From Coptis chinensis (lineage: Eukaryota > Streptophyta > Magnoliopsida > Ranunculales > Ranunculaceae), in the NCBI GenBank assembly GCA_015680905.1, contig CM027381.1, forward strand, positions 58,346,501 through 58,410,500: a stretch of DNA of 64,000 nucleotides. Reading direction: 5' to 3'. The position numbers and the translations under genes are program-made. The notes below the pieces were generated by a model, which was not told the origin of the DNA, ran no database searches, and saw only the letters and a program-made list of their open reading frames with translations. The first letter of the stretch is position 1. Each line of letters begins with the position of its first letter. Shown one piece after another: positions 31,002 through 61,312 of this stretch.

Positions 31002-31146
31002 AGCCTCTTGTACCATTGTTGTCACATTTCCAATCTTTCTATTCCACTCAATCAGTCCATGTTTCACCATTCTTAGTTTCTTTGTGAATATGAACATTGG
31101 GTTCCCTACCACTTTTGTATCCCATGCATCTTGTACTACATCCATG
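31002..31146 (-). pseudogene. LINE A, 5'-most surviving piece (endonuclease-RT linker)
   Basis: Encodes VVGNPMFIFTKKLRMVKHGL and IEWNRKIGNV, matching the linker of LINEs B and H. It lies between the right LINE C TSD and the satellite. An open frame, 31145-30702, runs from here across the TSD into LINE C endonuclease sequence; it is a chance joint of two insertions. Confidence 0.88.
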
Positions 31147-31426
31147 AATCAAGTGTTTTGCATTCTTTCTAATGCAAGCTCGCTTGTAGGTACGTTCATT
31201 CAATCGATCAAGTGTTTTGCATTCATTATAATGCAAGCTTACACTCGTATGTAAGTGTATTGAGTTAAGGGTGTTGCATTCCTTCAATCAGTCAAGTGGT
31301 TTGCATTCATTCTGATGCAAACTCAACCGTAGATGCATTTAATCAAGTGTTTTGCATTCTATTGGTGTAGATAGTGGGGTTTTGGGGTTTGGAAGTTGTT
31401 CATCTTCTATCTCACTTATATGATCT
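31147..31426. repeat. Satellite, segment 2
   Basis: Sub-repeat ladder and GTGTAGATAGTGGGG block of one monomer. It does not resume where segment 1 stopped; about 190 bp of the unit is missing across LINE A. The right side is cut by the CACTA element within TATGATCT|AGGCTAG. Confidence 0.93.
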
Positions 31427-31461
31427 CACTACATCAGATATTCGAAAAAAAGACAAGACTA
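31427..31461 (+). repeat. Left terminal inverted repeat of the CACTA element
   Basis: Begins CACTACATCAGATATTCG and continues AAAAAAAGACAAGACTA; 26 of 35 positions match the inverted right end. Confidence 0.85.
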
Positions 31462-32504
31462 CCGGCCGCTTTTAGTAGTACATTATGAGCACGCACCCGC
31501 GTGTGTCGTCCCTCCACGAGGCGGATCGGATCATAGACAAAAAGAAAAAAAATCACTTTTCACTCATTCGTTCTCTTCAAAAATAAGAAAACCCTCGGCT
31601 CTCAACTCTCTCTCGAATTGCAAATCACTCTCGAATCTCAAATCGCTCTCTTCTTAATCACATAATCATCTTTCTTGGGTAATTTCGATCACTTAAATTG
31701 ATCTTTTGATTTCGATCCCAAATAAATGATTTCAGTTTTAATTTCGATCACTTCTTAATCATTACAGATTGTTCACTTTCAAATTTTGTTTGATGATTGT
31801 TTTAATATCATCGAAAAATAAACAAACCTTGCTTTCATAGCCCTAAATTTTTTGTATAAATGTTAAATGTTTATTTTGGATATGTTTTTAGCTTATTATT
31901 GATTGGTATTGGTTTTTTGTGATGTGAAGATATGAAATAAAGCTTGAAATGACTTATAATGTGTTGTCTCTTTATTAGAAAACATTAATGTTATGGTGGA
32001 AATGACTAGTAATGGTTACAAAAGTATCGATTAGTTATAATTCAATTGCATTTTGAGATTCAATTGCGGTTAGTTACAATTTGTCAAAGGATCGTGTGTC
32101 GGTGTTCCCATGTCCTACATGGCGAAATACCAAAAATTTAGGTATATTACGCATGAATGTGTGTGAAATGTGGAGACAAATCCAACGCGGATTACTTTTA
32201 AAATATCTTTGTGTCTATGTAACATAGCTTTGGATCCATAGTTTCTTTTTTTTTTATTATCATTTTTTACATAAATTTCTGAGAGAGGGTGGGGTAGAAT
32301 TTGTTCTTGAAATATTGACTTAGATCTATTTGTCATGGATTAGGAATTTTAGAGGAGTTGGTAGTCTTATTTACGCCAATGCTAGTATAACTTGATACCT
32401 TTGAATTTGTAGTTGTTTTGTTATTATTATTGTTTTTGGTATCATCATAACTGGTTTCATTTCGTGGAGTGTGTTAATACCCCCACCTAATTTTCCTTTT
32501 GCAG
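31462..32504 (+). other. Captured gene leader and intron-like stretch in the CACTA element
   Basis: No open gene. About 31560-31676 is CT-rich and looks like a plant 5' leader (repeated CTCTCGAAT). It is followed by a donor-like GGGTAATTTC at about 31677. AT-rich intron-like sequence then runs to an acceptor TTTTGCAG at 32497-32504. Whether this is one host gene is an inference. A diverged copy of a short dispersed repeat lies at 32097-32228. Confidence 0.5.
32097..32228 (+). repeat. Short dispersed repeat, copy 1
   Basis: Matches 40455-40612 loosely: GGCGAAATA near the start, AGGTATAT in the middle, CGGATTA, TTTAAAATA and TGTAACATAG at the end. Family not identified; it may be a SINE or MITE remnant. 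Confidence 0.55.
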
Positions 32505-32647
32505 TTCTGCCGGTTGCTCTATCCTGGGGAAGATTCGCACCATTCAGTTAGAGACTTAGAGTACACATGCAAAAGAGAGTCTTCGCAAGCAGCTTCAAAA
32601 CACTTTTGCCTCAACACTTGGCTTCCAAGTCCAAAGGCAACAAATGG
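32505..32647 (+). pseudogene. Unrecognised host exon fragment in the CACTA element
   Basis: Follows an AG acceptor at 32503-32504. From the first base one frame is open for about 49 codons, beginning FCRLLYPGEDSHHSVRDLEY. A shorter ATG frame (MQKRVFASSFKTLLPQHL) overlaps it from 32567. Either could be an artefact. LINE E then interrupts the sequence, and it resumes at 38530-38590. I do not recognise the protein. The composition looks coding and the CACTA context suggests a captured gene piece, but no function can be assigned. Confidence 0.45.
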
Positions 32648-32656
32648 GTGATTGTT
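32648..32656. repeat. Target-site duplication of LINE E, left copy
   Basis: GTGATTGTT occurs here and at 38530-38538. Confidence 0.75.
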
Positions 32657-32741
32657 TGTTTTTTTTTTTTTGTTTGGTTGGCAAGCGGGGTTTTTAACGA
32701 GGTCCCCTACCCCTTTATTGATAATCAAACTATAACTCGAG

Positions 32742-35700
32742 TCACTTACATCTTGTGTACTTTTTCCCACTAGCATCCTCAATTACAATATTCCTAACCT
32801 CTAATGAGAATGAGCTAGGATCTAAGTTCAAAACACTTACTGCAGGTACATTTGATGCTAATACATCTGCCAGTCTATTAGATTCTCTAAAAACATGAAT
32901 TAACTCAAAATACTCTAATTCTTGAATCATCCATTTGATCTCATCCATAATCTGATTGGCTTGCCAAGGGTGGCTTCCTTTACTTTTGACAAAGGACACC
33001 ACATTCGATGAGTCCGTCTCATTGCTTGCAGCCTTTTTATGTTTTTCCCACTTGCTATTTTTAGCCCTTGATGCAGCCCCTGTAGTTCTATTAAAGCTAT
33101 AGAATGGTACTTTGATTTTCCATGGGCCGCAACAATTACCTCTCATGTATCATCTCGAACCACTTGCAGGCCCATCCTCCTCCTATCAAGCCTTGTAACG
33201 TTCCATCGAGGAGTTTAGAATGTATGCGTTACCACTTCCAGATCATTCTGTTCCATTTGCAGATTGTATCTCCTCCTTCCTTATTTCGGGTGCTTGCATT
33301 CCAAGTCTCCATGAATTTCTGCCTCTCCTGGGCCCTTCCTTCATCTTGTACCTTGTTCCTTGTATCTTGATTTTTACATCTCCAATGATTCCATGAATGA
33401 GCTCTTGTGATTGTCGGTGCTTGATTCTTAAAGATTCTATTGTTCCTTTCTTGCCATATCCAAAAGTAGAAGAACGCATTCACCATCAGCTTTAGTGAGT
33501 CTTGTTGCCCACCTTTCCCATTACTTGTTCGCAGCACCTCCACCGGAGCTCCTCCCCGCCATGTCGTGCGTTTGCCTTCTATAACCCGCGAGTATAAGAT
33601 ATTTTGCCATATATCACGAGGAGAAATTACAATAGAAGAATAAGTGTTGCTCTGTTTCATCCTCTTTCCAACGAGAGAACACATAATTTCGATCGAACCA
33701 CCTTGAACTCAAACAACTTGCTCAAGGTTTTCATAATTTGTTTCATGGCCATCCACCCAATGAAAGAATGTTTGGGTATACGGTTCGAACCAAATTAACT
33801 TATGCCGATCATTAGATTGTAGCTTCCTCCTCCTCGAGATTGGTGTCGTCTTTCAAATGATATTCTCCTTGTAAGGAATCGGTCTATACCACTCTATCGT
33901 TTCCTCTTCCCAGTGTTATCTCTTCTCTCATTTCTGTCACAATCTCTCTACATTCATTCTCCATATGTGGTGGAATGCTCCATTCGCCCTCATTTATAAA
34001 ATTTGCAACCGGTGCCTTCATATGGCATAAGGTGTTATAATATAATTTCCAAAATCCCTCTCATGCCATGGATCTTGCCAAAATAACGTATCTTGTCCAT
34101 TCCCAATCTGATGCACTGCTATTCCTTTCCCTTCCACTCTACTGTTAAGGATTGCTCTCCATCCCCAAGAACTGTTATGCGGTACCTTCATGCTCCAGAA
34201 ATTCTTGGTCTTGATCAAATTCTTCCAGACCCATGCTACCCATAAGCTATCCTTCCTTGATATCAAATGCCATAAATGTTTAAGGTTTGCTGCCTTATTC
34301 ACTATTCTCACATTCCTTATCCCTAATCCTCCTTCATCATATGGGTAGCATACTTCTTCCCATCCTACCAAAGCATGTGATTGAAGGCAATCTAGACCAG
34401 TCCATAGAAAATTCCTACAAATGCTCTCTATCATATCCAACACACTCATAGGTAGTATATAAGTCGATAACCAGTAGTTACTCAAATTATTTAGTACGAC
34501 CTTGAGTAGTTGTAGCCTTCCAAGATATGACAAAAGTTTCCCCCCTCAACCTTCTTTGTAAACTTATCAATGAGAGGCGACGGTTCTCATGAGTTAACAT
34601 TGTAGTGATCAATGGCATTCCCGGATACTTTCTCGGCAATTCTCCACTCGTAAATTGCATAACTTCTCGATATCATTACGTAATGGCTCCTCTATCCCCG
34701 AAAAAGAATAACCGACTCTTCCTTGAATGTTCACTTTAACCCATCATTCCTTGAATATCTGAAGATTGTTGTTTAAACATTGAGTCGTTTTCTCGTGTCT
34801 CCATACATAAATGCTAGCAAATCATCCAAAAAAGATAAGTGGGTGATTAGAGGTTCAGACATTTATAATGCGCTTTAAACTGCCTTTCTTCTCGACACTA
34901 TGATGCATAATCTCGTCAATAGTTCCATGACCATTACAAACAAATAAGGCGACATCGGATCTCCTTTGTCTTATCCCTCTTTCCCTTGAAATATCCATAC
35001 GGTGCTCCATTAATCATGATAGAGTAAAAGGAGTTTCAATACATACTTTAATCCATGCAATGAATTCCTCGGGCATGCCATATCTCCTTAGAGCAAAGAT
35101 CACCGCTTCCCATCTAACCAAGTCATATGCCTTCTTCAAGTCTATCTTTTTTGCACATCTAGGTGGTGAGTAATTCCTGTGATAGTTATGCAAAAGTTCA
35201 TGTGATAAAAGTATGTTATCTTGTATCCATCTACCGGGTACAAAGGTCGATTATTATTGATACAATCAAATTAATGAAGTCCTTCATTCTAGATGTTAGA
35301 ACCTTTCAATGCATTTATAGACCACATTGCGAGACGCAATTGGCCTATAATCCCCCGAGTCTCCGGGATTTGTACCTTTGGAATTAGAGTTATGCATGTT
35401 GAGTTCACTTCTCCTAACATTTTCCCCGACCTGAAAAACTCTGCGACCGCTCTCACCACATCATTTCCTACTATATTCCATGCCGATTTGAAGAATGATG
35501 GCGAGAACCCATCATTACCCGGTGCTTTGTCATTGTCAATCCTTGATAAAGCTTCTATGATCTCATCTCGTTCACGGTTTTCCTTAATTGTTCCTCGCAT
35601 CTCTTCAGTGATCCCGCACTTTGGTCAGATATTTTAAAGACATCAAAATTCACTTCCGGCAAGTTCTCTCGTTTTGTAAACTTTCTCATAATATCTAGCA

Positions 35701-36881
35701 CATTCTTCTCCAATCTGATTTACATCATCTATCAAATTCCCTTGTTCATTCAAGAGGCAGGTAATCTTATTTGTGTTTCTTCTTGCTTGAACTGTTTTGA
35801 AAAATAAGCCGGTGTTGCTATCCCCGAGACAATGGATGATCTCTAGATTTACCTATGGAACTCTTCCTCAAGAATGGCCGCCTTAACATGCATGTGAATG
35901 GCTGATTTCTCCTCTTTGATGAGCTAAACATTTAGTGGGTCTATCGTCAGTAGCTTTGTTTGTACATCTAAGAGCTCCTTCTTGGTTATTTCAGCCCTTG
36001 TAACCACATTCCCTATTCTCTGCCTATTCCATACAATCAAATCACCCTTCACTTGTTTCAATTTTCTCATTAGGATGTACATAGGGTTTCCTTTAAATTC
36101 AGTTCCCCAAGCCTTCCCCGATCACCTCCTTATAAGTTTCTTCTTTTAAAGAACACGACGTTCTTTTCTTTTTCTTTCCTCTGTGGCAGAAGTATACTAC
36201 CATGACAATGATCTCAAACTTCCCCGGTTTCAAACTTCGACCTCGTAGTCTTCAAACTCATCATACCACTCTGCGTTCACCATAACCCTATCTAGTTTCC
36301 TCCATGCTCTATCAATCCTCTTGTTACTCCATGTTAGCGTATTCCCCTTAAACTTTATATCTCTCGATCCCAGCGGTTACACATTGCAAAAAGTCTGCAA
36401 AATGGTGGTGTCTCGTTGGTAGCCCCCCTACCCTCTCATGTGAATGTAGAACTGAGTTAAAGTCTCCAATTACCATCCAAGGTTTTTGAAAGGTGAATGA
36501 AAAATTACTCAGCTCATCCCATAGTCGCTGCCTTATATAAAGGTCTGTGCTCGCATAGATAACTGAGAGCATAAAATTCTTCCCATTCTGTAGTGTCACT
36601 TCCATCGAGACACTTTGCAAACTCTTGATTACATTAGACACTATGCATACTTGTGTATCCCATACCACCCAAATTCTCCCTTTGTCACTAAACTCATAGT
36701 TATGTTCTGCTGCCCAACCTGGAAAGCATTTGGTAATCACCGCATCCATGTTTCCTTGCTTCACTTTTGTTTCCACCAATGCCATAATATTAATATTATC
36801 CTTCCTAACTAATTCCTTCACCTCATTATGCTTAAAGTTCTTTGAACCCTCGCGATATTCCAAAGACGCCACATTCATCAT
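32742..36881 (-). pseudogene. LINE E ORF2 (endonuclease, RT, RNase H-like)
   Basis: Starts at ATG 36881 with MMNVASLEYREGSKNF. The endonuclease keeps the catalytic Glu segment IMALVETKV and FQKPWMVIGDFNSVL, but the frame ends near 36348. The RT start is at 35289-35600 (ERDEIIEALSRIDNDKAPG). Much of RT motifs A-C (34540-35280) is scrambled by small insertions and deletions. The zf-RVT side is at 34018-34533 (LLKVVLNNLSNYWLSTYIL, FLWTGLDCLQSHALVGW). The RNase H end is at 32742-33146 (FELIHVFRESNRLADVLASN). It is not functional. Confidence 0.88.
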
Positions 36882-38452
36882 TTAAAGAGGTGAGTTTGTT
36901 TTAGAGAGCCATTATTGGCACCCTCTTTCCTCTTAGCACTACTGCTACTTCCTTTGTGTTGATTACCTCCCCGTGAAATGTTTTGTACTGTATGAGTTCT
37001 AGGCCTGCTGATTGTTATCTGCCCACTCTGTTTCAATTTCCCCTGGACTCTTCCGCTATTCTGCTCATTACTCTTTTCATTCTTATCTGATACTCTTGTC
37101 TTTTCATTTTCACTATCATTCCTTGCTCTGATTGTATGCTTCCTTTTTGGGGTCTCCCATTTCCCTTCCTCTTCAACTATCTGTCTTTCTTGGATATCGG
37201 TATTCTCCACTTCTTCCACTGTGTGTACTTCTTGTACCTCATGAGCTTTCCCTTTCTCAATTTCACCTTTTTCCTTACATACTGTGCTTGTATTCTCTCC
37301 CTCTTCCTCTTCTTTATTATCCTTCTTTAGCCATACCGCATCGGTATTTTTATTGCTAACTCTCCTCAGGCAATTATGCTCCAAATGGCCAAACACTTCG
37401 CAAACTGAACATCTAGGTGGCTTCCAGTTGTATTCAAAAGAGACTTTATAAGCCCTTCGTTGATCCAACACTACAGGAATGCTCTCTGGGTATGCACACT
37501 TGGTGTCCACCTCTACACAAATGCGCGCATAACTTGTTCTCGTCATGTTCTCTGTTAACTTGTCTGTAAACATTGGTATGCCCACAGCACTTGCAACTTG
37601 ACTGAACCCTTGCTTATTCCACATCTCCATTGGTAAACCCTTGACAATAACCCATATTGGTATTGTTTTAAGTTCTCTCGTTTCACCACGAACACTTTCC
37701 ATGGCCTTACCACAAAACGGTTTGGCTTGCAATGTGGAATGATCCGATATCTAACACTTCCCTTCTATCTTCTTCCTCCCGATCAAACTTGAATGTAAAC
37801 ATTGCATCCCCATATGGCTTCATTGAAAACCCTTTTCAAGCCCCATGTTACGGTAACAATCTCCTTCACATAATTAAAGTTAAGTTTTTTACCAACAAAA
37901 GATCCCACTATCGTTCTCGAATTTCTTGTTGTACTTTCGGTGAACCGTCTTTTGATATGAATCACTTGCTTCCCATTCTCTACCCCCATCTTTCCCCATC
38001 GTCTTCTTGCCCAAAACATCTGCCCATGAACTCTTTGTGGGTTCTTGATGCTTCGACTATCTATCGAGACTTTCCCAGTTCATTTGTACCCTCGGTTCAC
38101 ATGGTTCCCAGTCGACTATTGTATGACTCGATTCCACATCTCCATTCAACCTCTAGCCGCCTTTCTCTGTAAATCCATAGTCTCGCCGGTATTCATCCCG
38201 TCTGCGAACTTTTGGGTCTTCTCTTGCTTTTAAGAATTCCTCCTCATTTGTTACTTCATCCTCATCCTCTCTCTGGTTTAAAAGATCATCATGTATCTTC
38301 ATTATTCTTCGCTGTAGCATTTTTTCAAGTGATCCTTTACCATAAGTTCTCTCGAACTCAGTTTCCAGTTTCTCTGATTCCTCGTCATTGTTTGAATTCC
38401 TATTAGGTCTAGGAATCCCGCTCTCATTCTCTCTTGTTTTTTCTTTTTCCAT
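36878..38452 (-). pseudogene. LINE E ORF1 (DUF4283 and CCHC zinc knuckle)
   Basis: Start at ATG 38452 (MEKEKTRENESGIPRPNRNS), with a helical SLEKMLQRRIMKIHDDLLNQ near residue 40. Frames at 38153-38452, 37783-38019 and 36878-37732 follow one another with frame changes. DUF4283 is seen as SFVGKKLNFNYVKEIV and IPIWVIVKGLPMEMWNKQGF. The zinc knuckle has the family spacing (CSVCEVFGHLEHNC). A charged C-terminal tail follows. The stop TGA overlaps the ORF2 ATG as ATGA at 36878-36881. In the lineage this is the RNA-binding partner of the reverse transcriptase. Confidence 0.9.
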
Positions 38453-38529
38453 ATCTTTTTTTGCTAAAAGACAAATATACCCTTAATGAAAAAATCGCCC
38501 ACTAAAGGCCACCATTAATGAAAAAGGCT

Positions 38530-38675
38530 GTGATTGTTCGGCTACTGCTGGGGGAAATAAAGGAATGAAGAAGACTATGCTAGATGATTATTATTATTAT
38601 TATTATTCATGTTTATCATTTCAACAGTTGCCTATGCTAGATTTGTAATGATGAATGTGGTGTCATTTTTGCTAG
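38530..38675 (+). other. CACTA interior between LINE E and GET3B, with (ATT)n microsatellite
   Basis: The right TSD of LINE E (38530-38538) is followed by about 50 bp continuing the unrecognised exon, an ATT microsatellite near 38587-38608, and intron-like sequence ending in GCTAG at 38671-38675. Confidence 0.6.
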
Positions 38676-38738
38676 AATTTGACTGGAGGGATGCTAGTAT
38701 CAGTTGAAGGTCCAGATTCTCCGTTGTTTGCCCTTGAG
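38676..38738 (+). pseudogene. GET3B: Captured exon of GET3B (plastid ArsA/GET3-type ATPase), exon i
   Basis: A 63-bp exon between AG (38674-38675) and GT (38739-38740), phase 0 on both sides. It encodes NLTGGMLVSVEGPDSPLFAL plus Glu. This matches, from memory, the part of plant chloroplast GET3B just after the Walker-type nucleotide-binding region, where Arabidopsis reads DLTGGMLVPVEGPEAPLFAL. GET3 ATPases guide tail-anchored proteins to membranes; GET3B is the plastid form. Only this exon and the next are present, without the P-loop or the C-terminal half, so it is a gene fragment carried by the CACTA element. The intron to the next exon is kept, so capture was at the DNA level. Confidence 0.85.
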
Positions 38739-38846
38739 GTGTGTAGGTAGAGTTATATGTACGGGTATCTACAACATTATGTATGTGTATACTGCCTATT
38801 AAACACATATTTGCTATGGCATTTTATTGGAATCTTTCTCTCACAG

Positions 38847-38957
38847 ATAAATCCTAAAAAGGCAAGGGAAGAATTTAGATCAGCAAGTCAGTCAAATGGT
38901 GGGACTGGGGTCAGAGATTTTATGGATAGCATGGGCCTTGGGATGCTTGTTGACCAG
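38847..38957 (+). pseudogene. GET3B: Captured exon of GET3B, exon ii
   Basis: A 111-bp exon between CTCACAG (ends 38846) and GTAAAC (from 38958), phase 0, with no stop. It encodes INPKKAREEFRSASQSNGGT followed by GVRDFMDSMGLGMLVDQ, very close to the GET3B segment after PLFALE. The 108-bp intron 38739-38846 has normal GT and AG ends. Both exons keep their frame and splice sites, which points to a fairly recent capture or simply little time for decay. Nothing of the next GET3B exons was found before 39842. Confidence 0.88.
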
Positions 38958-39842
38958 GTAAACCTGGAAATTTGATAGTTCATACCAAGTGATAAAAAAT
39001 CCGAGTTTGTTAATCTTTCATATTGTGTTTTGTTTAGTCCACAAACAAGACTTAATAGACTGAAAAGAAAAACGAGTTCTCAGTCAGTTTAGCAATAATG
39101 GAAAAGCAAAAAACAGGAATGAATTTCTTAGATTAATTCTATTCTGTATTTCTAAGCATGAAGTCACTTGAGTGGTCTAAAGGCTTACTATTTTATTTTT
39201 TTTGTATTCTAAAAAACGTTTTGCCTTGTGATATTGGAGTTTGGAGAGGTCTGTATTTTATTTTTTTTGTATTCTAAAAAACCTGGACTCACATAATGGA
39301 GTGAAATCTCAGGTGAATCTTTTTTCTTTCATCAAATTGCAATATTTATACAAATAAAGAAAGTTGTCACATACCCACATGTGAATCAAACAACCATGTT
39401 ATAGGTGTGTGAGTGCATGTGAGCATACCATCAACGTGTAGATTCATCGGCGCACAAAATGTCTCTTTTTTAAGCAAAGGGGGTCACAGAATGTTGAGTG
39501 AGGGTACTGATTTCCCATTTCGATCTTTTAAAAGCAAAGGCACTGACAAAGTAGTAAAATGACGCACTGAAGAACCACGTTGGGTAACACACAGGACACT
39601 GTTAACCACATCTTGGTTCATTGTTATTCCCCTTGAGTAACTGGCTAAATGTTTAGAAAACATTAGCGATAAGTGGTTGCTTCCTAAGAGTGTGAAAATT
39701 TGTATTAGCATACACTCACTCTCTGAAACATCAAAGTGTCATAAATATATGATTCTCCAAAACTTTAAATGATGTAATATATGATATACATAAGGAAGAC
39801 AAAATAAATGATCTTTATACATAAATGAAACAAAATAAACAC
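38958..39842. other. CACTA interior, intron-like, with a local direct duplication
   Basis: Begins with the intron after the GET3B exon. The stretch TTTTTTTTGTATTCTAAAAA occurs twice, near 39195 and 39258, as a local direct repeat of about 30 bp at a spacing of about 63 bp. A minus-strand open frame at 39484-39711 (75 residues) is not recognised and may be chance. The right end holds the intron following DPE2 exon 1 (minus strand). Confidence 0.55.
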
Positions 39843-40184
39843 CTGCCAGAGGTCGCGGAGCTCCACCACTTGTCTGTCCTGAATTGTATCCGGCAATAAT
39901 ATTTTGCGTTTGTTACCAGCCTCAGATCTCATAACATTTTTATCTTTATCGACCAAACAATAACCATATTGGGCATGAAAACCAGTAGGGACTGAAATTT
40001 TTCCAGACCAGATGAGTTCCTCCCCTTGGAAAGAAGGAGTTAAAGCCAAACCTTTCTTCACATTCCATGAACCAAGCAAAGGTTCCGAACCACACACTAG
40101 AATACTCTGACTCCATTCAATATAATATGGTATTCTGAAGCTTAAATTGATCATCTTTAATGGTTTCAACCTCAGATTCTCCAT
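39843..40184 (-). pseudogene. DPE2: Captured first exon of DPE2 (cytosolic 4-alpha-glucanotransferase)
   Basis: Open from ATG 40184 to a normal donor (CTGGCAG|GTGTTT, intron from 39842). It encodes about 114 residues beginning MENLRLKPLKMINLSFRIPY. LVCGSEPLLGSWNVKKGLAL and GEELIWSGKISVPTGF, then VVELRDLWQ, are diagnostic of the first starch-binding CBM20 domain of plant DPE2. That enzyme moves glucose from maltose onto a cytosolic glucan at night. The second CBM20 and the GH77 catalytic domain are absent, so this is a fragment. It lies opposite in strand to the GET3B exons, so the pieces were not taken as one block. The frame is unbroken. Confidence 0.9.
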
Positions 40185-40763
40185 TTTCAATGGTTGGGTA
40201 GAAATAATAAAAAGTTTGTTTGAGACAAGGAGAGAAACAGAGCCGAGTGTTGGATCTCTTTTTTAGTCGACTCATATAACTATGTAAGTGAGTTTCTCTC
40301 TCACACTTGTACTTTTTTTACATCGTAATCAATAAATTTTACTTATAAAAAAAAACAACTAATGCAGGGCATTTATAAGTTTGGGTAACGTCTTTTATGG
40401 CCTTAAATAGAGTTACTTACCTAAAAACTATGTTAAATTGACATGGATAGGTAAGTCCGTATCTGATACGGAGTGTCTAACACGGCGAAATATCAAATAT
40501 TGAGGTATATCAAATACAATATGTTTTCGATATGTGTCCGTGGTGACACTTGGATACCTATCCGACACGGATTAAGTTTAAAATACAGTGTCCTTGTAAC
40601 ATAGTCTAAAAATTATACGAGAAAGGTTCTTTAAATGAGAGGAGGTTCTTGAAATGGTTATTTAGTTCTACTAGAAACAAAGTCAGAGATGGCATTAGTT
40701 TAGTTTTGTTGACAAAGCTTTCTAGTGGTGCATTTATGCAAATTATTGTGATTTTCTTAACAG
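40185..40763. other. CACTA interior: DPE2 leader and a dispersed repeat
   Basis: The first 100 bp or so are probably the DPE2 5' leader and promoter edge (minus strand). At 40455-40612 lies the second copy of the short dispersed repeat. The stretch 40613-40763 is intron-like and ends in the acceptor of the MO25-like exon. Confidence 0.55.
40455..40612 (+). repeat. Short dispersed repeat, copy 2
   Basis: Fuller copy of the repeat at 32097-32228: GTCCGTATCTGATACGGAG, GGCGAAATATCAAATATTGA, GACACGGATTAAG and CTTGTAACATAG. Family not identified. Confidence 0.55.
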
Positions 40764-40838
40764 CTATGATAACAAAGACGTTGCATTGAATTGTGGGAAC
40801 ATGTTGAGGGAATGCATCAAATTTCCGAGCCTTGCAAA
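40764..40838 (+). pseudogene. Captured exon of an MO25-like gene
   Basis: A 75-bp exon between CTTAACAG (ends 40763) and GTAAGA (from 40839). It encodes YDNKDVALNCGNMLRECIKF followed by PSLAK, the conserved helix of MO25/CAB39 scaffold proteins (animal form: ALNCGIMLRECIRHEPLAK). MO25 proteins stabilise STE20-type kinases; plant copies are linked to cell division and polarity. The flanking intron sequence is kept, so capture was from DNA. Only this one exon is present, and it cannot act as a gene by itself. Its strand agrees with the GET3B exons. Confidence 0.82.
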
Positions 40839-41734
40839 GTAAGACATGTTGTATTTTTGCTAACTAGTTCCCCGGTTTCGAGTTTGACATATCCATTTCC
40901 TTTTTTTATTATTGTTGTTAAGGTAAACAGTGCTTTTAACTTATATTCCTTTTTCTCGATTAGTAATAAGTATTATGCAAAATCTTCACGTTCCAGCTTA
41001 GGTTAAGGACTTTGACCGTTCGGTTTGAGTCCGTCATGCTTGTTTGACTAAGCTTTCCAAAGAGTGAATAACATTCAATTGTTTGTAAAAGTTTGGTGTC
41101 TGGGCGAGGAGTCATTAGTTATATATCCCTTACCTTTATATCTATGTGATTCTTGTGGAGCTAACCAATGTGGAATGTATTTTTCAGTCGTTCAGATGGG
41201 AGACTTGGAGTCGGTCGAAATATTGCGCACAAGTTTGCAAGCACTTTCAATTCGGTCGAACCCACAACTTGATTGTTAGGGTCTGCGATATAATGTCATA
41301 AGGATTGGGGTTTCAGTAACATCGGCATCTTTTATTCGCTTATCTCACTAAAAGATGTTGCTGAAAATTTTTCATCTTTCCCTTTTCTTTATTATTAGTT
41401 TACTTTATTACGTCATTAATTAATTTTGTTTATGTTTTGGGGATTGTTCATCTTTTTTGATCCTGTGTGTAGTAGTAGGTTGGGCTTCTAAAGGGATTTC
41501 GGTCTACTAGAGAAGAATGTATCCAATTAGCTTATACTGGGTGGGCTTCTTTGGGCCATGAAATAGATTTTGGGATAGGGACCTTTCTTTGGTCCCTGAT
41601 TCAAACTTTTTTAAAAAAAATTGTAAAAATAAAAAACGACACATGTCAAGTGTCGTAGAAAAAAAACGACTGCAAAAAAAATGGGTCACCACCCGACACT
41701 AAGAAAGTGTCATTTTTATGGAAAAACGAAAAGT
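40839..41734. other. CACTA right arm: intron-like sequence and subterminal repeats
   Basis: Begins with the intron after the MO25-like exon. An acceptor-like TTTTTCAG at about 41181-41188 precedes a short open stretch (VQMGDLESVEILRTSLQALS) that I do not recognise. From about 41630 to 41720 are ACGACAC, GTGTCGT and CCCGACACT motifs, typical of CACTA subterminal transposase-binding repeats. Confidence 0.6.
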
Positions 41735-41769
41735 TTGTCATGTCTTTTTTCAACAGATCTGGTGTTGTG
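41735..41769 (-). repeat. Right terminal inverted repeat of the CACTA element
   Basis: Inverse of the left end with nine mismatches in 35. The element ends ATCTGGTGTTGTG, followed by the drifted TSD TAT and satellite AGGCTAGAG. Confidence 0.85.
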
Positions 41770-44700
41770 TATAGGCTAGAGTTTAGGGTTTAGAGTCTTA
41801 CTCCTTGTCTTATAAAGGGTTTAGTCATTGATTCTTGGAGGCTTGGAGAGTTTCCTGAGCTTTTTAGTTTTAGGACCCTTGAGTTCACTTTGACCGTTGA
41901 CTATGGCTTTGATCGTTGACGGTCGACTTTTGATAGTTTGACTTTTTGGCACTTTTTCCCAGTTGTTCCATGAGGCCCCTTTTAGGGTTATTTTCTCTCA
42001 TTTTGGCTATATAACACGTCTTTTGAGGTATCAGTTCCAGAATAGTGCTGTATCTAGAAAAAACGATAAGAACATGAGTTTTGTACAATCAATCAATCCG
42101 GTGTTTTGCATTCATTATAATGCAAGCTCATGCGAAGGTACATTTAATCAAGTGTTTTGCATTCTTTCTAATGTAGGCTCGCTTGTAGGTGTGTTCATTT
42201 AATCAATAAAGTGTTTTGCATTCATTATAATGCAAGCTCACACTCGTACGTAAGTGTATTGAGCTAAGGGTTTTGCATTCATTCAATCAATTAAGTGTTT
42301 TGCATTCATTCTGATGCAAACTCAACCGTAGATGCATTTAACCAAGTGTTTTGCATTTTATTGGTGTAGATAGTGGGGGGTTTTGGGGTTTGGAAGTTGT
42401 TCATCTTAGATGTCACTTATATGATCTAGGCTAGAGTTTAGGGTTTAGAGTCTTAGTCCTTGTCTCACAAAGGGTTTAGTCATTGATTCTTGAAGCCTTG
42501 GAGAGTTTCCGAAGCTTTTTAGTTTTTGGACCCTTGAGTTCACTTTGACCGTTGACTATGGCTTTGATCGTTGACTGTTGACTTTTGACAGTTTGACTTT
42601 TTGGAACATTTTCCCAGTTGCTCCATGAGGTCCCTTTTAGGGTCCTTTTTATCTCATTTTGGCTTTATAATACGTATTTTGAGGTATTAGTTCCAGAAGA
42701 GAGCTGTATCCTGAGAAAGAGATAAGAACATGAATTTTCTACAATCAATCAATCAATCAGGTGTTTTGCATTCATAATAATACAAGCTCACGCATAGGAA
42801 CATTCCATCAGGTGTTTTTCATTCTTTCTAACGCAAGCTCGCTTGTAGGTACGTTCATTCAATCCATCAAGTGTTTTGCATTCATTATAATGCAAGCTCA
42901 CACTCGTACGTAAGTGTATTGAGTTAAGTGTTTTGCATTCATTCAATCAACCAAGTGTTTTACATTCATTCTGATGCAAACTCAATCGTAAATGCATTTA
43001 ATCAAGTGTTTTGCATTCTATTGGTGTAGATAGTGGAGTTTTGGGGTTTGGAAGTTGTTCATCTTAGATCTCACTTATATGATCAAGGCTAGAGTTTAGG
43101 GTTTAGAATCTTAGTCCTTGTGTTACAAAAGGTTTAGTCATTGATTCTTGAAGCCTTGGAGAGTTTCCTGAGCTTTTTAGATTTTGGACCCTTGAGTTCA
43201 CTTTGACCGTTGACTATGACTTTGCTCGTTGACTGTTGACTTTTGACAGTTTGACTTTTTGGAACTTTTTCCCAGTTGTTCCATGAGGTCCATTTTAGGG
43301 TCCTTTTTATCTCATTTTGGCTTTATAAAACGTATTTTGAGGTATTAGTTCCAGAATAGAATTGTATCCTGAGAAACCGATAAGAACATGAGTTTTCTAC
43401 AATCAATCAATCAATCAGGTGTTTTGCATTAATAATAATGCAAGCTCACGCATAGGAACATTCCATCAGGTGTTTTGCATTCTTTCGAACGGAAGCTCGC
43501 TTTTAGGTACGTTCATTCTATCCATCAAGTGTTTTGCATTCATTATAATGCAAGCTCACACTCGTATGTAAGTGTATTGAGTTAAGTGTTTTGCATTCAT
43601 TAAATCAATCAAGTGTTTTGCATTCATTCTGATGCAAACTCAACCGTAAATGCATTTAATCAAGTATTTTGCATTCTATTGGTGTAGATAGTGGGGTTTT
43701 GGGGTTTGGAAGTTGTTCATCTTAGATGTCACTTATATGATCTAGGCTAGAGTTTAGGGTTTAGAGTCTTAGTCCTTGTCTTACAAAGGGTTTAGTCATT
43801 GATTCTAGAAGCCTTGGAGAGTTTCCTGAGCTTTTTTGTTTTTGGACACTTGAGTTCACTTTGACCGCTGACTATGGCTTTGATCGTTGACTGCTGACTT
43901 TTGACAGTTTGACTTTTTGGCACTTTTTCCCAGTTGTTCCATGAGGCCCCTTTTAGGGTCCTTTTGTCTCATTTTGGCTATATTACACGTCTTTTGAGGT
44001 ATTTGTTCCAGAATAGTGCTGTATCCAGAAAAAGCGATAAGAACATGAGTTTTCAACAATCAATCAATCAATCAATCAGGTGTTTTGCATTCATTATAAT
44101 GCAAGCTCATGCGAAGGTACATTCAATCAAGTGTTTTGCATTCTTTCTAACACAAGCTCGCTTGTCGGTATGTTCATTCAATCAATCAAGTGTTTTGCAT
44201 TCATTATAATGCAAGCTCGCACGTAAGTGTATTCAGTCAAGTGTTTTGCATTCGTTCTAATGAAAACTCACACGTATATGCATTTTATAAAGAGTTTGGA
44301 TTTCAATTGGTGAAGATAGTGGTAGGGTTTGGAAGTTGTTCATCTTAGATCTCACTTATATGATCTAGGCTAGAGTTTAGTGTTTAGAGTCTTAGTCCTT
44401 GTCTTTCAAAAGGTTTAGTCATTGATTCTTGAAGCCTTGGAGAGTTTCCTAAGATTTTTAGTTTTTGGACCCTTGAGTTCACTTTGACCGTTGACTATGG
44501 CTTTGATCGTTGACGGTCGACTTTTGATAGTTTGATTTTTTGGCACATTTTCCCAGTTGTTCCATGAGGCCCCTTTTAGGGCCTTTTTGTCTCATTTAGG
44601 CTATATAACACGTATTTTGAGGTAATAGTTCCTATCCAGAAAAAGCAATAAGAACATAAGTTTTCTAGAATCAATCAATCAGGTGTTTTGCATTCATTAT

Positions 44701-47071
44701 AATGCAAGCTCATGCGAAGGTACATTCAATCAAGTGTTTTGCATTCTTTCTAACGTAGGCTCGCTTGTAGGTACGTTCATTCAATCAATAAAGTGTTTTG
44801 CATTCCTTATAATGCAAGCTCACACTCGTTCGTAAGTGTATTGAGTTAAGGGTTTTGCATTCATTCAATCAATCAAGTGTTTTGCATTCATTCTGATGCA
44901 AACTCAACCGTAGATGCATTTAATCAAGTGTTTTGCATTCTATTGGTGTAGCTAGTGGGGTTTTAGGGTTTGGAAGTTGTTCATCTTAGATCTCACTTAT
45001 ATGATCTAGGCTAGAGTTTAGGGTTTAGAATCTTAGTCCTTGTATTACAAAGGGTTTAGTCATTGATTCTTGAAGCCTTGGAGAATTTCCTGAGCTTTTT
45101 AGTTTTTGGACCCTTGAGTTCACTTTGACTGTTGACTATGGCTTTGATCGTTGACTATCGACTTTTGATAGTTTGACTTTTTTACACTTTTTCCCAGTTG
45201 TTCCATAAAGCCCCTTTTAGGGTCCTTTTGTCTCATTTTGAATATATAGCACGCCTTATGTGGTATTAGTTCCAGAATAGTGCTGTATCCAGAAAAAGCG
45301 ATAAGAACATGAGTTTTCTACAATCAATCAATCAATCAATCAAGTGTTTTGCATTCATTATAATGCAAGCTCATGCGAAGGTACATTCAATCAAGTGTTT
45401 TGCATTCTTTCTAACGCAAGCTCGCTTGTAGGTACGTTCATTCAATCCATCAAGTGTTTTGCATTCATTTTAATTCAAGCTCACACGTAAGTGTATTCAG
45501 TCAAGTGTTTTGCATTCAGTATAATGCAAACTCACACGTAGATGCATTTTATAAAGTGTTTTGCATTCTATTGGTGTATATAGTGGGGTTACGGGGTTCG
45601 GAAGTTGTTATCTTAGATCTCACTTATATGATCTAGGCTAGAGTTTAGGGTTTAGAGTCTTAGTCCTTGTCTTACAAAGGGTTTTGTCATTGATTCTTGA
45701 AGGCTTGGAATCCTAAGCTTTTTAGTTTTTGGACCCTTGAGTTCACTTTGACCATTGACTATGGCTTTGATCGTTGACGGTCGACTTTTGATAGTTTGGC
45801 TTTTTGGCACTTTTTCCCAGTTGTTCAATGAGGCCCCTTTTATGGTCCTTTTGTCTCATTCTGGCTATATAACACGTCTTTTGTGGTATTAGTTTCAGAA
45901 TAGTGCTGTATCTAGAAAAAACGATAAGAACATGAGTTTTCTACAATCAATCAATCAATCAATCAGGTGTTTTGCATTCAATATAATGCAAGCTCATGCG
46001 AAGGTACATTCAATCAAGTGTTTTGCATTCTATCTAACGCAAGCTCGCTTGTGGGTACTTTCATTCAATCCATCAAGTGTTTTGCATTCATTATAATGCA
46101 AGCTCACACTCGTATGTAAGTGTATTGAGTTACGTGTTTTGCATTCATTCAATCAATCAAGTGTTTTGCATTCATTCTGATGCAAACTCAACCGTAGATG
46201 CATTTAATCAAGTGTTTTGCATTCTATTGGTGTAGATAGTGGGGTTTTGGTGTTTGGAAGTTGTTCATCTTAGATGTCACTTATATGATCTAGGATAGAG
46301 TTTAGGGTTTAGAGTCTTAGTCCTTGTCTTACAAAGGGTTTAGTCATTGATTCTTGAAGCCTTGGAGAGTTTCCTGAGCTTTTTAGTTTTTGTACCCTTG
46401 AGTTCACTTTGATCGCTGACTATGGCTTTGATCGTTGATCGTTGACTTTTGATAGTTTGACTTTTTTGCACTTTTTCCTAGTTGTTCCATGAGGCCCCTT
46501 TTAGGGTCCTTTTGTCTTATTTTGGCTATATAACACATCTTTTGAGATATTATTTTCAGAATAGTGTTGTATCCAGAAAAAGCGATAAGAACATGCGTTT
46601 TCTACAATCAATCAATCAATCAATTAGGTGTTTTGCATTCATTATAATGCAAGCTCACACTCGTACATAAGTGTATTGAGTTAAGTGTTTTGCATTCATT
46701 CAACCAATCAAGTGTTTTGCATTCATTCTAATGCAAACTCAACCGTAGATGTATTTAATCATGTGTTTTGCATTCTATTGGTGTAGATAGTGGGGTTTTG
46801 GGGTGTGGAAGTGGTTCATCTTAGATCTTACTTATATGATCTAGGCTAGAGTTTAGGGTTTAGAGTCTTAGTCCTTGTTTTACAAAGGGTTTAGTCATTG
46901 ATTCTTGAAGCCTTGGAAAGTTTCCTGAGCTTTTTAGTTTCTGTACCCTTGAGTTCACTTTGACCGCTGACTATGGCTTTGATCGTTGACCGTTAACTTT
47001 TGACAGTTTGACTTTTTGGCACTTTTTCCCTGTTATTCCATGAGGCCCCTTTTAGGGTCCTTTTGTCTCAT
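41770..47071. repeat. Satellite array, segment 3 (about eight monomers)
   Basis: Anchors GATTCTTG or close variants at about 41830, 42485, 43143, 43801, 44424, 45065, 45692, 46349 and 46900, giving periods of 655, 658, 658, 623, 641, 627, 657 and 551 bp. The long monomers carry an extra CACTCGTACGTAAG sub-repeat; the 551-bp one has lost sub-repeats. Each monomer has the TTGAC block and the TTTAGGGTTTAG block. No gene. Confidence 0.96.
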
Positions 47072-49058: not shown

Positions 49059-50516
49059 CTTAATGCAAACTCACACGTAGATGCATTTAATCATGTGTTT
49101 CGCATTATGTTGGTGTAGAAAGTGGGGTTTTGGGATTTGGAAGTTGTTCATCTTAGATCTAACTTATTTGATCTAGGCTGGGGTTTAGGGTTTAGAGGCT
49201 TAGTCCTTGTCTTACAAAGTGTTTAGTCATTGATTCTTGAAGCCTTAGAGTGTTTCCTGAGTTTTTGAGTTTTTGGACCCTTGAGTTCACTTTGACAGTT
49301 GACTATGGCTTTGACCGTTGACTGTTGACTTTTGACTGTTTGACTTTTTGGAACTTTTTCCCAGTTGTTCCATGAGGTCCCTTTTAGGGTCTTTTTTTAT
49401 CTCATTTTGGCTTTATAACACGTATTTTGAGGTATTAGTTCCAGAATAGAGCTGTATCCTGAGAAAGCGATAAGAACATGAGTTTTCTACAATCAATCAA
49501 TCAATTAGGTGTTTTGCATTCATTATAATGCAAGCTCACACGTAAGTGTATTCAGTCAAGTGTTTTGCATTCATTCTAATGCAAACTCACACATAGATGC
49601 ATTTAATCATGTCTTTCGGACTCTGTTGGTGTAGAAAGTGGGGTTTTGGTGTTTGGAAGTTGACCGTTGACTTTTGACAGTTTGACTTTTTAGAACTCTT
49701 TCCCAGTTGTTCCAGGAGGTCCCTTTTAGGGTCCTTTTGTCTCATTTTGGCTCTATAACACGTCTTTTGAGGTATTAGTCCCAAAATAGGGCTGTTTTCT
49801 GAAAAATCCATAATAAGAACATGAGTTTTCTACAATCAATCAATCAATCAGGTGTTTTGCATTCATTATAATGCAAGCTCACGTGTAGGTACATTCAATC
49901 AAGTGTTTTGCATTCTTTCTAACGCAAGCTCGCTTGTAGGTATGTTCATTCAATCAGTCAAGTGTTTTGCATTCATTATAATGCAAGCTTACACGTAAGT
50001 GTATTCAGTCAAGTGTTTTGTATTCATTCAATCAATCAAGTGTTTTGCATTCATTCTAATGCAAACTCACACGTAGATGCATTTAATCATGTGTTTCGCA
50101 CTCTGTTGGTGTAGAAAGTAGGGTTTTGGGGTTTGGAAGTTGTTCATCTTAGATCTAACTTATATGACCTTGGCTAGGGTTTATGGTTTAGAGGATTAGT
50201 CCTTGTCTTACAAAGCGTTTAGTCATTGATTCTTGAAGCCTTGGAGTGTTTCCTGACTTTTTGAGTTTTTGGACCCTTGAGTTCACTATGACAGTTGACT
50301 ATGGCTTTGATCGTTGACCGTTGACTTTTCACAGTTTGACTTTATGGCACTCTTTCCCAGTTGTTCCAGGAGGTCCCTTTTAGCATCATTTTGTCTCATT
50401 TTGGCTCTATGACACGTCTTTTGAGGTATTAGTTCCAAAATTTGGTTGTTTCCTGAAAAATCTATAATAAGAACATGAGTTTTCTACAATCAATCAATCA
50501 ATTAGGTGTTTTGCAT
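49059..50516. repeat. Satellite array, segment 4
   Basis: Anchors at about 49232 and 50228. A short recombinant unit lies near 49600-49680, where GTTTGGAAGTTG jumps straight to ACCGTTGACTTTTGACAG. The block 49291-49347 holds six TTGACY motifs. The right side is interrupted by LINE H. Confidence 0.94.
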
Positions 50517-50601
50517 TTTTTTTTTTTTTTGGGTAAGCGGGGTTGTTTAATTAAGAGGTCCCCTACCCCTTCCTCATAGAGGATAAAAAAAATTTGAAAT
50601 A

Positions 50602-56821: not shown

Positions 56822-57125
56822 ATCAATCAGGTTTTTTTTTTCATTATTAAATGCAAGCTCACGCTTAAGTATTCAATCAAGTGTTTTGCATTCTTTCTAA
56901 CGCAAGCTCGCTAGTAGGTATGTTCATTCAATCAGTCAAGTGTTTTGCATTCATTATAATGCAAGCTTACACGTAAGTGTATTCAGTCAAGTGTTTTGCA
57001 TTCATTCAATCAATCAAGTGTTTTGGATTCATTCTAATACAAACTCACATGTAGATGCATTTAATCATGTGTTTCGCACTCTGTTGGTGTAGAAAGTGTG
57101 GTTTTGGGGTTTGGAAGTGGTTCAT
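56822..57125. repeat. Satellite, segment 5
   Basis: Sub-repeat ladder of one monomer ending in GGTTTGGAAGTGGTTCAT, where the solo LTR cuts in. TTCAT at 57121-57125 is the left TSD of that LTR. Confidence 0.94.
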
Positions 57126-58604: not shown

Positions 58605-61312
58605 TTCATTTTAGATCTAACTTATATGATCTAGTTTAGGGTTTAGAGGCTTAGTCCTTGTCTTACAAAGGGTTTAGTCATTGATTCTTGAAGCCTTGAC
58701 GTGTTTCTTGAGTTTTTGAGTTTTTGGACCCTGGAGTTCACAATGAACGTTGACTATGGCTTTGATCATTGACCGTTGACTTTTGACATTTTGACTTTTT
58801 TGCATTTTTTTACAGATGTTCCATGAGGTCCCTTTGTCTCATTGTGACTCTATAACTAGTCTTTTGAGGTATTAGTTCCAGAATAGGGTTGTATCCTGAA
58901 AAGGCGATAAGAACATGAGTTTTCCACAATCAATCAATCAATCAGGTGTTTTGCATTTATTATAATGCAAGCTCAAGAGTAGGTACATTCAATCAAGTGT
59001 TTTGCATTTTTTCTAATGCAAGCTCACTTGTAGGTACGTTCATTCAATCAGTAAAATGTTTTGCATTCATTATAATGCAAGCTCACAAGAAAGTGTATTC
59101 AGTCAAGTGTTTTGGATTCATTCAATCAATCAAGTGTTTTGCATTCATTCTAAGGAAAACTCACACGTAGATGCATTTAATCATGTGTTTCGCACTCTGT
59201 TGGTGCAGAAAGTGGGGTTTTGGGGTTTGGAAGTTGTTCATCTTAGATCTAACTTATATGATCTTGGCTAGGGTTTATGGTTTAGAGGCTTAGTCCTTGT
59301 CTTACAAAGGGTTTAGTCATTGATTCTTGAAGCCTTGGCGTGTTTCCTGAGTTTTTGAGTTTTTGGACCCTGGAGTTCACAATGAACGTTGACTATGGCT
59401 TTGATCATTGACCATTGACTTTTGACAGTTTGACTTTTTTGCACTTTTTTACAGATGTTCCATGAGGTCCCTTTGTCTCATTGTGACTCTATAACTCGTC
59501 TTTTGAGGTATTAGTTCCAGAATAGGGTTGTATCCTGAAAAGGCGATAAGAACATGAGTTTTCCACAATCAATCAATCAATCAGGTGTTTTGCATTCATT
59601 ATAATGCAAGCTCAAGAGTAGGTACATTCAATCAAGTGTTTTGCATTCTTTCTAATGCAAGCTCACTTGTAGGTACGTTCATTTAATCAGTAAAGTGTTT
59701 TGCATTCATTATAATGCAAGCTCACAAAAAAGTATATTCAGTCAAGTGTTTTGGATTCATTCAATCAATCAAGTGTTTTGCATTCATTCTAATGCAAACT
59801 CACATGTAGATGCATTTAATCATGTGTTTCGCACTCGGTTGGTGCAGAAAGTGGGGTTTTGGGGTTTGGAAGTTGTTCATCTTAGATCTAACTTATATGA
59901 TCTTGGCTAGGGTTTATGGTTTAGAGGCTTAGTCCTTGTTTACAAAGGGTTTAGTCATTGATTCTTGAAGCCTTGGAGTGTTTCCTGAGTTTTTGAGTTT
60001 TAGACCCTTCAGTTCACTGTGACCGTTGACTATGGCTTTGATCGTTGACCGTTGACTTTTCACTGCTTTGACTTTATGGCACTTTTTCCCAGTTGTTCCA
60101 GGAGGTCCATTTTAGGCTTCTTTGTCTCATTTTGGCTCTATAAGATGACTTTTGAGGTATTAGTTCCAAAATAGGGTTGTTTCCTGAAAAATCAATAATA
60201 AGAACATGAATTTTCTACAATCAATCAATCAATTAGGTGTTTTGCATTCATTATAATGCAAGCTCACGCATAGGTACATTCAATCAAGTGTTTTGCATTC
60301 TTTCTAACGCAAGCTCGCTTGTAGGTACGTTCATTCAATCCGTCAAGTGTTTTGCATTCATTATAATGCAAGCTCGCACGTAAGTGTATTCAATCAAGTG
60401 TTTTGCATTCATTCAATCAATCAAGAGTTTTACATTCATTCTATTGTAAACTCGCACGTACATGCATTTAATTAAATGTTTTGCATTCTATTGGTGTAGA
60501 TAGTGGGGTTCTGGGGTTTGGAAGTTGTTCATCTTTGATCCAATTTATATGATCTAGGCTAAGGTTTAACGTTTAGTGGCTTAGTCCTTGTCTTACAAAG
60601 GGTTAAGTCATTGATTCTTGAAGCCTTGGAGTGTTTCCTGAGGTTTTGAGTTTTTGGACCCTTGAGTTCACTATGACCGTTGACTATGACTTTGATCATT
60701 GGCCTTTGACTTTTGACTGGTTGAGTTTTTTGCACTTTTATCCAGATGTTCCATGAGGTCCCTTTTTCTCTCTTTGGCTCTAAAACACGTTATTTGAGGT
60801 ATTACTTCCAGAATAGGGCTGTATCCTGAAAAAGCGATATGAACTTGAGTTTTCTACAATCAATCAATCAATCATGTGTTTTGCATCCATTATAACGCAA
60901 CCTCACATGTAGGTGCATTCAATCAAGTGTTTTGCATTCTTTCTAACACAAGCTTGCTTGCAGGTACGTTCATTCAATCAATCAAGTGTTTTGCATTCAT
61001 TATAATGCAAGCTCGCACGTAAGCGTATTCAATCAAGTGTTTTGCATTAATTCAATCAATTAAGTGTTTTGTTTTCATTCTAATGCAAACTCCCACGTAG
61101 AAGCATTTAATCAAGTGTTTTGCATTCTATTGGTGTAGATAGTGGGGTTTTGGAAGTAGTTCATCTTAGATCTAACTTATAAGTTCTAGGCTAAGGTTTA
61201 GAGTTTAGAGGCTTAGTCCTTGTCTTACAAAGGGTTTAGTCATTGATTCTTGTAGCCTTGGAGTGTTTCCTGTGCTTTTGAGTTTTTGGACCCTTGAGTT
61301 CACTATGACCGT
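58605..61312. repeat. Satellite array, segment 6 (about four monomers)
   Basis: Anchors at about 58682, 59322, 59963, 60613 and 61246, giving periods of about 633-651 bp. The monomers from 58682 and 59322 are nearly identical and share private variants (TTTTTTACAGATGTTCCATG, CATTGTGACTCTATAAC), a recent tandem duplication. The monomer at 60613 carries another variant (CTCTCTTTGGCTCTAAAACA) also found at about 63920-63943. The segment ends in ATGACCGT, the left TSD of LINE G. Confidence 0.95.

Follow-up and report, generated by a model that had tools for sequence, protein, structure and literature searches.

The stretch of Coptis chinensis DNA analysed here (the window) is 64,000 nucleotides long and corresponds to positions 58346501–58410500 of contig CM027381.1, called C5 below. 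Genome matches were searched in the whole assembly (GCA_015680905.1; 935,630,033 bases, 116 contigs). At positions 31427–41769 of the window, inside a satellite array, lies a non-autonomous CACTA transposon of the Pack-CACTA type, which carries pieces of four host genes: RPN3/PSMD3, GET3B, DPE2 and an MO25-like gene. The initial annotation had placed a CACTA element with pieces of the last three genes here, and the ends, further copies, empty site and donor genes described below bear it out. All three genes that it named are present; the fourth donor, RPN3/PSMD3, had been overlooked and contributes three colinear pieces. The order of the pieces is given in Table 1.

The window copy starts CACTACATC at 31427 and finishes GGTGTTGTG at 41769. 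The CACT(A/G) inverted ends characteristic of CACTA elements are present, as CACTACATC on the left and CACAACACC (one base off) on the right. Inverted ends of 35 bp had been annotated; they exist, with just 26 of the 35 bases pairing. Over the first 33 bases 25 pair, a number reached by one of 200,000 random inverted 33-mer pairs drawn from the window. The ends of a second copy (copy 2) pair at 27 of 33 bases, the first 13 perfectly, and its right end reads CACTACACC. The 3-bp target site duplication also typical of the superfamily is a perfect TTA/TTA around copy 2 and an imperfect TCT/TAT around the window copy. Twenty satellite-monomer alignments within the window cross the insertion point without an insert, half of them (10/20) reading GATCT/AGGC at this point. 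Relative to this empty form the insertion amounts to the element plus exactly 3 bp; therefore the duplication claimed earlier is present, with one mismatch. Copies of the ends are found at many other places, with and without the cargo, which was the outcome of a check proposed with the initial annotation. For the left 501 bp, 28 of the 39 match rows (window included) begin no later than base 15 and extend to base 462 or beyond; the right 520 bp gave 181 candidates genome-wide, 40 of which were scored. One could suppose that the inverted ends arose by chance or as an assembly artefact and that the gene pieces merely form a cluster of pseudogenes, given the imperfect duplication and some oddly clustered changes in the window copy. 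With 20 uninterrupted monomer alignments, a perfect duplication around copy 2 and the same ends recurring genome-wide, some with different interiors, this is barely credible.

The satellite flanking the element has monomers mostly of about 630–660 bp with 51-bp subrepeats and is interrupted by other sequence. Within the window it occupies positions 1–2703, 31140–31426, 41772–47071, 49063–50517, 56822–57125, 58605–61315 and 62557–64000.

The entire 10.3-kb interior had been taken as the element. More than half of it, about 5.9 kb, is a later long interspersed nuclear element (LINE; a retrotransposon without long terminal repeats), which had been overlooked. It is identified as a LINE by two domains, a terminal T run and a flanking repeat around GTGATTGTT. 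The domains are in minus-strand frames that match Exo_endo_phos (E 8.9e-06) and DUF4283 (E 9.6e-17) in Pfam; two other frames, initially assigned to the reverse transcriptase and the C-terminal part, found no match in Pfam. The stretch 37016–38529 has relatives (L016–L018) that are 87–95% identical over about 1.5 kb. The LINE is missing from both other copies of the compound element; cargo therefore makes up less than half of the reported span. Its insertion is the last step in the window copy.

The two other copies also lie on C5, copy 2 at C5:58707795–58711788 and copy 3 at C5:66604760–66609206; with the window copy they are called lineage A here. Several copies with the same cargo are a hallmark of Pack-CACTAs, and here three elements carry DPE2 and MO25 and six carry an RPN3–GET3B core. 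Identity to the window copy is 96.56% for copy 2 and 95.95% for copy 3, and the two are 98.11% identical to each other. They have the joins of the window copy except where copy 2 is deleted; a 489-bp deletion removes its last RPN3 piece. The GET3B and DPE2 cargo diverges by 1–2% among the lineage A copies and by 4–9% from the donor genes, and amplification therefore followed capture. Satellite duplication was considered as the origin of copy 2, which is 330 kb away, and was rejected: it has its own TTA duplication, and the flanks fetched for it are unlike those of the window copy.

Two GET3B exons with their intron, DPE2 exon 1 on the opposite strand and an MO25-like exon had been annotated with intact splice sites, and this is what we find. 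The introns are kept, so that the capture was at the DNA level, as had been stated. DPE2 exon 1 is open across 114 codons with five amino-acid differences from the donor, and the window's own DPE2 frame matches CBM_20 (E 2.1e-18). The RPN3 exons are cut and altered. Left of the cargo, the stretch 32056–32446 is common to the sister lineage described below, and tiling against the loci and the genome assigned no source to it. The junction between the RPN3 exon piece at 38526–38558 and GET3B contains filler and an ATT repeat. The main MO25-like piece spans 40378–40986, and about 1.3 kb of donor sequence is missing between it and the 57-bp piece. The element has no transposase of its own, another hallmark of Pack-CACTAs: there are 22 stop-to-stop frames of at least 50 codons outside the LINE, the longest of 165, and the ten of them scanned with Pfam gave CBM_20 as the sole match. 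The sense-strand exons may yield chimeric transcripts; we claim no protein function for them.

Table 1. Features of the window copy (window positions) and patches of the sister lineage (matching genome loci).
Feature	Position or matching locus	Strand	Remarks
Non-autonomous CACTA element (Pack-CACTA), window copy	31427–41769	+	4474 bp excluding the LINE
Target site duplication, left copy TCT	31424–31426	.	Empty satellite monomers
Left inverted end	31427–31461	+	26/35 bases pair with right end
Family left end	31427–32055	+	Common to elements whose homology to the window copy ends near 32055
RPN3/PSMD3 fragment, intron end and exon (from 32505)	32447–32656	+	Resumes at 38526–38558 past the LINE
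LINE (non-LTR retrotransposon), later insertion	32657–38525	-	Domains, flanking repeat, missing from copies 2 and 3
RPN3 exon, continuation	38526–38558	+	
GET3B fragment: intron end, exon 38676–38738, intron, exon 38847–38957, intron start	38601–39139	+	95.7% to C7:41.489M
RPN3 intron piece	39133–39251	+	96.7% to C2:102.908M
Repeated ~30 bp of RPN3 intron at DPE2 join (templated insertion)	39254–39282	+	
DPE2 fragment: 5' part, exon 1 (coding 40184–39843, CBM_20 domain), part of next intron	39283–40283	-	Donor C7:1.741M
Filler, ~76 bp of it dispersed repeat	40284–40377	.	
MO25-like fragment (exon 40764–40838) and 57-bp piece 40998–41054	40378–41054	+	Closest paralog C2:74.567M
RPN3 intron end and next exon (from 41188), truncated inside exon	41074–41370	+	
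Right end of element	41371–41769	+	
Right inverted end	41735–41769	-	
Target site duplication, right copy TAT, one mismatch	41770–41772	.	Empty satellite monomers
Lineage B patch, 402 bp	C5:8.405M		97.8%
Lineage B patch, 277 bp	C7:22.958M		97.5%
Lineage B patch, 224 bp	C4:62.561M		96.0%
Lineage B patch, 133 bp	C7:22.959M		97.7%
Lineage B patch, 745 bp	C5:9.898M		96.3%

Host gene fragments with a donor elsewhere in the genome are the defining cargo of a Pack-CACTA, and all four donors were located: GET3B at C7:41.49M, DPE2 at C7:1.74M, MO25 at C2:74.57M and RPN3 at C2:102.91M. The RPN3 donor carries the Pfam domains TPR_PSMD3_N, PCI and Rpn3_C, the GET3B donor carries ArsA_ATPase, the DPE2 donor exon carries CBM_20, and for the MO25 donor the PDB has matching MO25/CAB39 chains. 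The name DPE2 and the letter B in GET3B are our presumption. The MO25 paralogs are at C2:74.567M (the closest, 94%), C8:28.840M, C2:34.380M and C2:74.496M. When compared with the sister lineage, the RPN3 donor at C2:102.908M is 97.5% identical over 276 bp and 93.9% over 66 bp, and other RPN3-like loci gave less similar or shorter matches. Partial RPN3 matches are clustered at C9:5510316–5511935 (about 700 bp apart) and at C3:10498770–10527835.

The two donors on C7 are 39.7 Mb apart and the two on C2 are 28 Mb apart; none adjoins another. The earlier statement that the donors are not neighbours thus stands, and the adjacency check proposed with it, now run, does not refute the element. A rival reading is that the four fragments were neighbours from the outset, in an ordinary locus that was translocated or taken up as a unit. 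We found no support for this, and the unlinked donors contradict it within this assembly. The DPE2 segment has four genome matches, namely three elements and the gene at C7:1.741M, and no outside match joins the pieces. A ready-joined source is thus very improbable. The 13 genome matches to the GET3B segment comprise the window, five other elements, the gene at C7:41.489M, five short LINE ends and one short RPN3 match, with no GET3B chimera outside the elements among them.

The RPN3–GET3B core is common to six elements: the three of lineage A and those at C2:19.36M, C3:12.46M and C1:75.35M (lineage B), which are 99% alike in the stretches compared. One lineage B copy, C2:19361321–19365614 (L012 with L043), was traced end to end, and the base-by-base comparison of joins covers this element. 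Lineage B has no DPE2 and MO25; after RPN3 it carries five patches totalling about 1.9 kb (Table 1). The 277- and 133-bp patches occur in reversed order and the same orientation in a C7 relative that bears a TNP2 transposase domain, and the C4 locus of the 224-bp patch holds part of the 133-bp patch too, again in reversed order. An exchange of ends between the lineages was suspected, since the left ends are 82% identical versus 88–93% for the RPN3–GET3B stretch. It was dropped: sliding identity to lineage B runs without a step in copies 2 and 3, and a tree of the left ends groups both lineages.

The C7 relative, located through the patches it has in common with lineage B, is 17.3 kb long (C7:22943114–22960433, minus strand). 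It matches PF02992 TNP2 (Transposase_21) with an E-value of 7.7e-43 at profile positions 2–99 of 213, and lineage B's right end at 94% over 281 bp. This reveals the type of transposase but not the helper itself. The search for an intact autonomous element that has the ends of the window copy found none: 150 of 2715 candidates were scored in a Pfam transposase scan, and by eye none lay between the listed left and right ends. The nearest transposase candidate noted, at C5:1914312, lies beyond a left end by about 8.3 kb. Reading frames of further members of the family (L044–L046) yielded a peptide for which neither a Pfam family nor a PDB match was found. The region of the C7 relative (C7:22943000–22962500) also contains a cyclic nucleotide-gated channel exon, with a PDB match to ion channel 1 (E 1.2e-37), and a Myb/SANT-like frame. 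The frame beside the latter has no Pfam match and resembles what we take to be a PIF/Harbinger transposase.

The arrangement of the cargo is nested. The RPN3 pieces, which come in gene order from a 1-kb stretch of the donor, surround the other cargo. GET3B sits inside RPN3 and displaces about 74 bp of it (measured in lineage B), and the DPE2–MO25 block sits inside an RPN3 intron and displaces 193 bp. Copies 2 and 3 and the C2:19.36M element have an identical GET3B-to-RPN3 join, with a 7-base overlap of the donor alignments that contains a TTAA microhomology. Short fillers and a 30-bp templated repeat are also seen at joins.

In the model proposed for Arabidopsis Pack-CACTAs and argued for maize and rice families, as given in the consulted parts of the papers, two close insertions are mobilised as one and carry the intervening DNA with them (PMC8903248, PMC13317346). 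Such a fusion of neighbours could account for a first step in which RPN3 came to lie between two ends. It does not predict GET3B inside colinear RPN3 with about 74 bp lost, the 30-bp templated repeat, or the 0.13–0.75-kb patches from several loci in lineage B. A scan for the 13-base end motif, allowing three mismatches, gave no inner match in copies 2 and 3 or the C2 relative, which also speaks against fusion, although more degraded ends would escape the scan; the window copy has five inner matches, all at three mismatches and four of them in the LINE (shuffles, 2.15). We consider fusion of neighbours unlikely as the source of this cargo. Copying into a break within the element accords better with the nesting, the fillers, the microhomology and the 30-bp templated repeat than the fusion model does. 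Each capture would then be the repair of a break inside the element, with the broken end copying unrelated templates by synthesis-dependent strand annealing (SDSA) or abortive gap repair.

Taken as a whole, the element, one of three known copies of this Pack-CACTA, is likely to have gained its cargo by stepwise capture and to have relied on a transposase supplied elsewhere. An element with these ends would have acquired about 1 kb of RPN3, and about 0.54 kb of GET3B would then have been copied into the RPN3 piece with the loss of about 74 bp. Because GET3B is nested in RPN3, capture of RPN3 probably came before that of GET3B. One lineage would have exchanged 193 bp of RPN3 intron for about 1.8 kb of antisense DPE2 and MO25 pieces, and the sister lineage would have gained other patches at a nearby point. 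That GET3B preceded DPE2 and MO25 is the simpler order by parsimony and is not proven. The completed element would have transposed to at least three places on C5 before the LINE inserted into the window copy. More tentatively, and with the balance tipped slightly against it, the family may grow from inside: breaks in earlier cargo would be repaired by short, template-switching copying of unrelated loci, giving nested, reordered and lineage-specific cargo. Lineage B would be the clearest case of such growth: of its five patches, two or more come from inside the TNP2-bearing CACTA relative and stand in reversed order.

Several observations weigh against the overall account. Copy 3 is without the outer 14 bp on the left. 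Private substitutions number 103 in the window copy versus 29 in copy 2 and 43 in copy 3 (a count that takes in the lost end of the latter), and of the 103, 32 fall in 31427–31799 and 25 in the bin 32400–32656. The last RPN3 piece of the window copy is just 92% identical to copy 3, and its two RPN3 coding pieces are just 85% and 88% identical to the donor. The excess changes may be genuine clusters of mutations or may stem from misassembly of repeated sequence, and we have no good explanation for them. In the left-end tree, where the grouping of both lineages has a support of 0.848, the long branch is that of the window copy alone. Lineage B lacks all that lies right of its RPN3 intron piece and is therefore not a clean intermediate; DPE2 and MO25 may instead have been lost from it. 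The left end of the TNP2 relative is common over 108 bp at 76%, and its right end is 79% identical to the window copy. The proposed break-repair route, finally, is one read solely from scars.

Multi-base change clusters private to the window copy are found at 31427–31799, 32529–32656 and 41188–41312 (left end and RPN3 exon sequence), and 38526–40900 is nearly free of private changes.

The multi-gene Pack-CACTA at this locus is real and well supported, and is ordinary in kind, of a sort known since Tgm-Express1 (PMC1947982). The suggestion that it might be something not described before does not survive, as multi-gene Pack-CACTAs with introns have been published. Tgm-Express1, in the soybean wp allele, has five genes, and chimeric spliced transcripts have been shown for it (PMC1947982). 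Both CACTA elements combine exon and intron fragments from a number of unrelated genes of their host, and they are of similar size (5.7 kb for Tgm-Express1, 4.5 kb for the window element without its LINE; PMC1947982). They differ in their donor genes, and for the window element such transcripts are a possibility. Relatives that order the captures are present for the window element; the consulted account of Tgm-Express1 has none (PMC1947982). Filler DNA of 1 to 123 bp at transposon excision sites in rice, for which the consulted text names SDSA as the mechanism, likewise consists of foreign patches acquired via break repair (PMC4423477). Those fillers lie at excision sites; in the window family the patches are internal to the element and up to about 1 kb long. 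For capture, the consulted part of a paper on Chenopodium CACTA elements refers to Rubin and Levy (PMC8978399). A literature search on template switching in Pack-MULEs yielded nothing useful. Ordered, nested captures within a CACTA family were not found in titles and the beginnings of abstracts, a body of text in which the subscription literature is mostly uncovered, and we do not claim that they are absent from print.

Exon shuffling by CACTA elements is known, and how cargo enters them has been argued from few cases. The family described here is useful mainly because it records nested and probably stepwise capture clearly. A single assembly contains the donors, three compound copies, three relatives with part of the cargo and a transposase-bearing relative; therefore a likely order of the captures can be worked out and the scar left at each join can be read. 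The two proposed routes of capture, fusion of neighbours and copying into an internal break, thus become directly comparable. Helitrons are a different class of transposon, without inverted ends or target duplication. As in this family, those of maize have gained several gene fragments successively, in an order given by relatives (PMC3288121). The Pack-CACTAs of Arabidopsis and the Pack-TYPE elements of maize and rice likewise form families with inserts added stepwise, according to the consulted part of that work (PMC8903248). Capture there is explained by fusion of neighbours (PMC8903248), whereas in the window family later cargo is nested in earlier cargo with repair scars.

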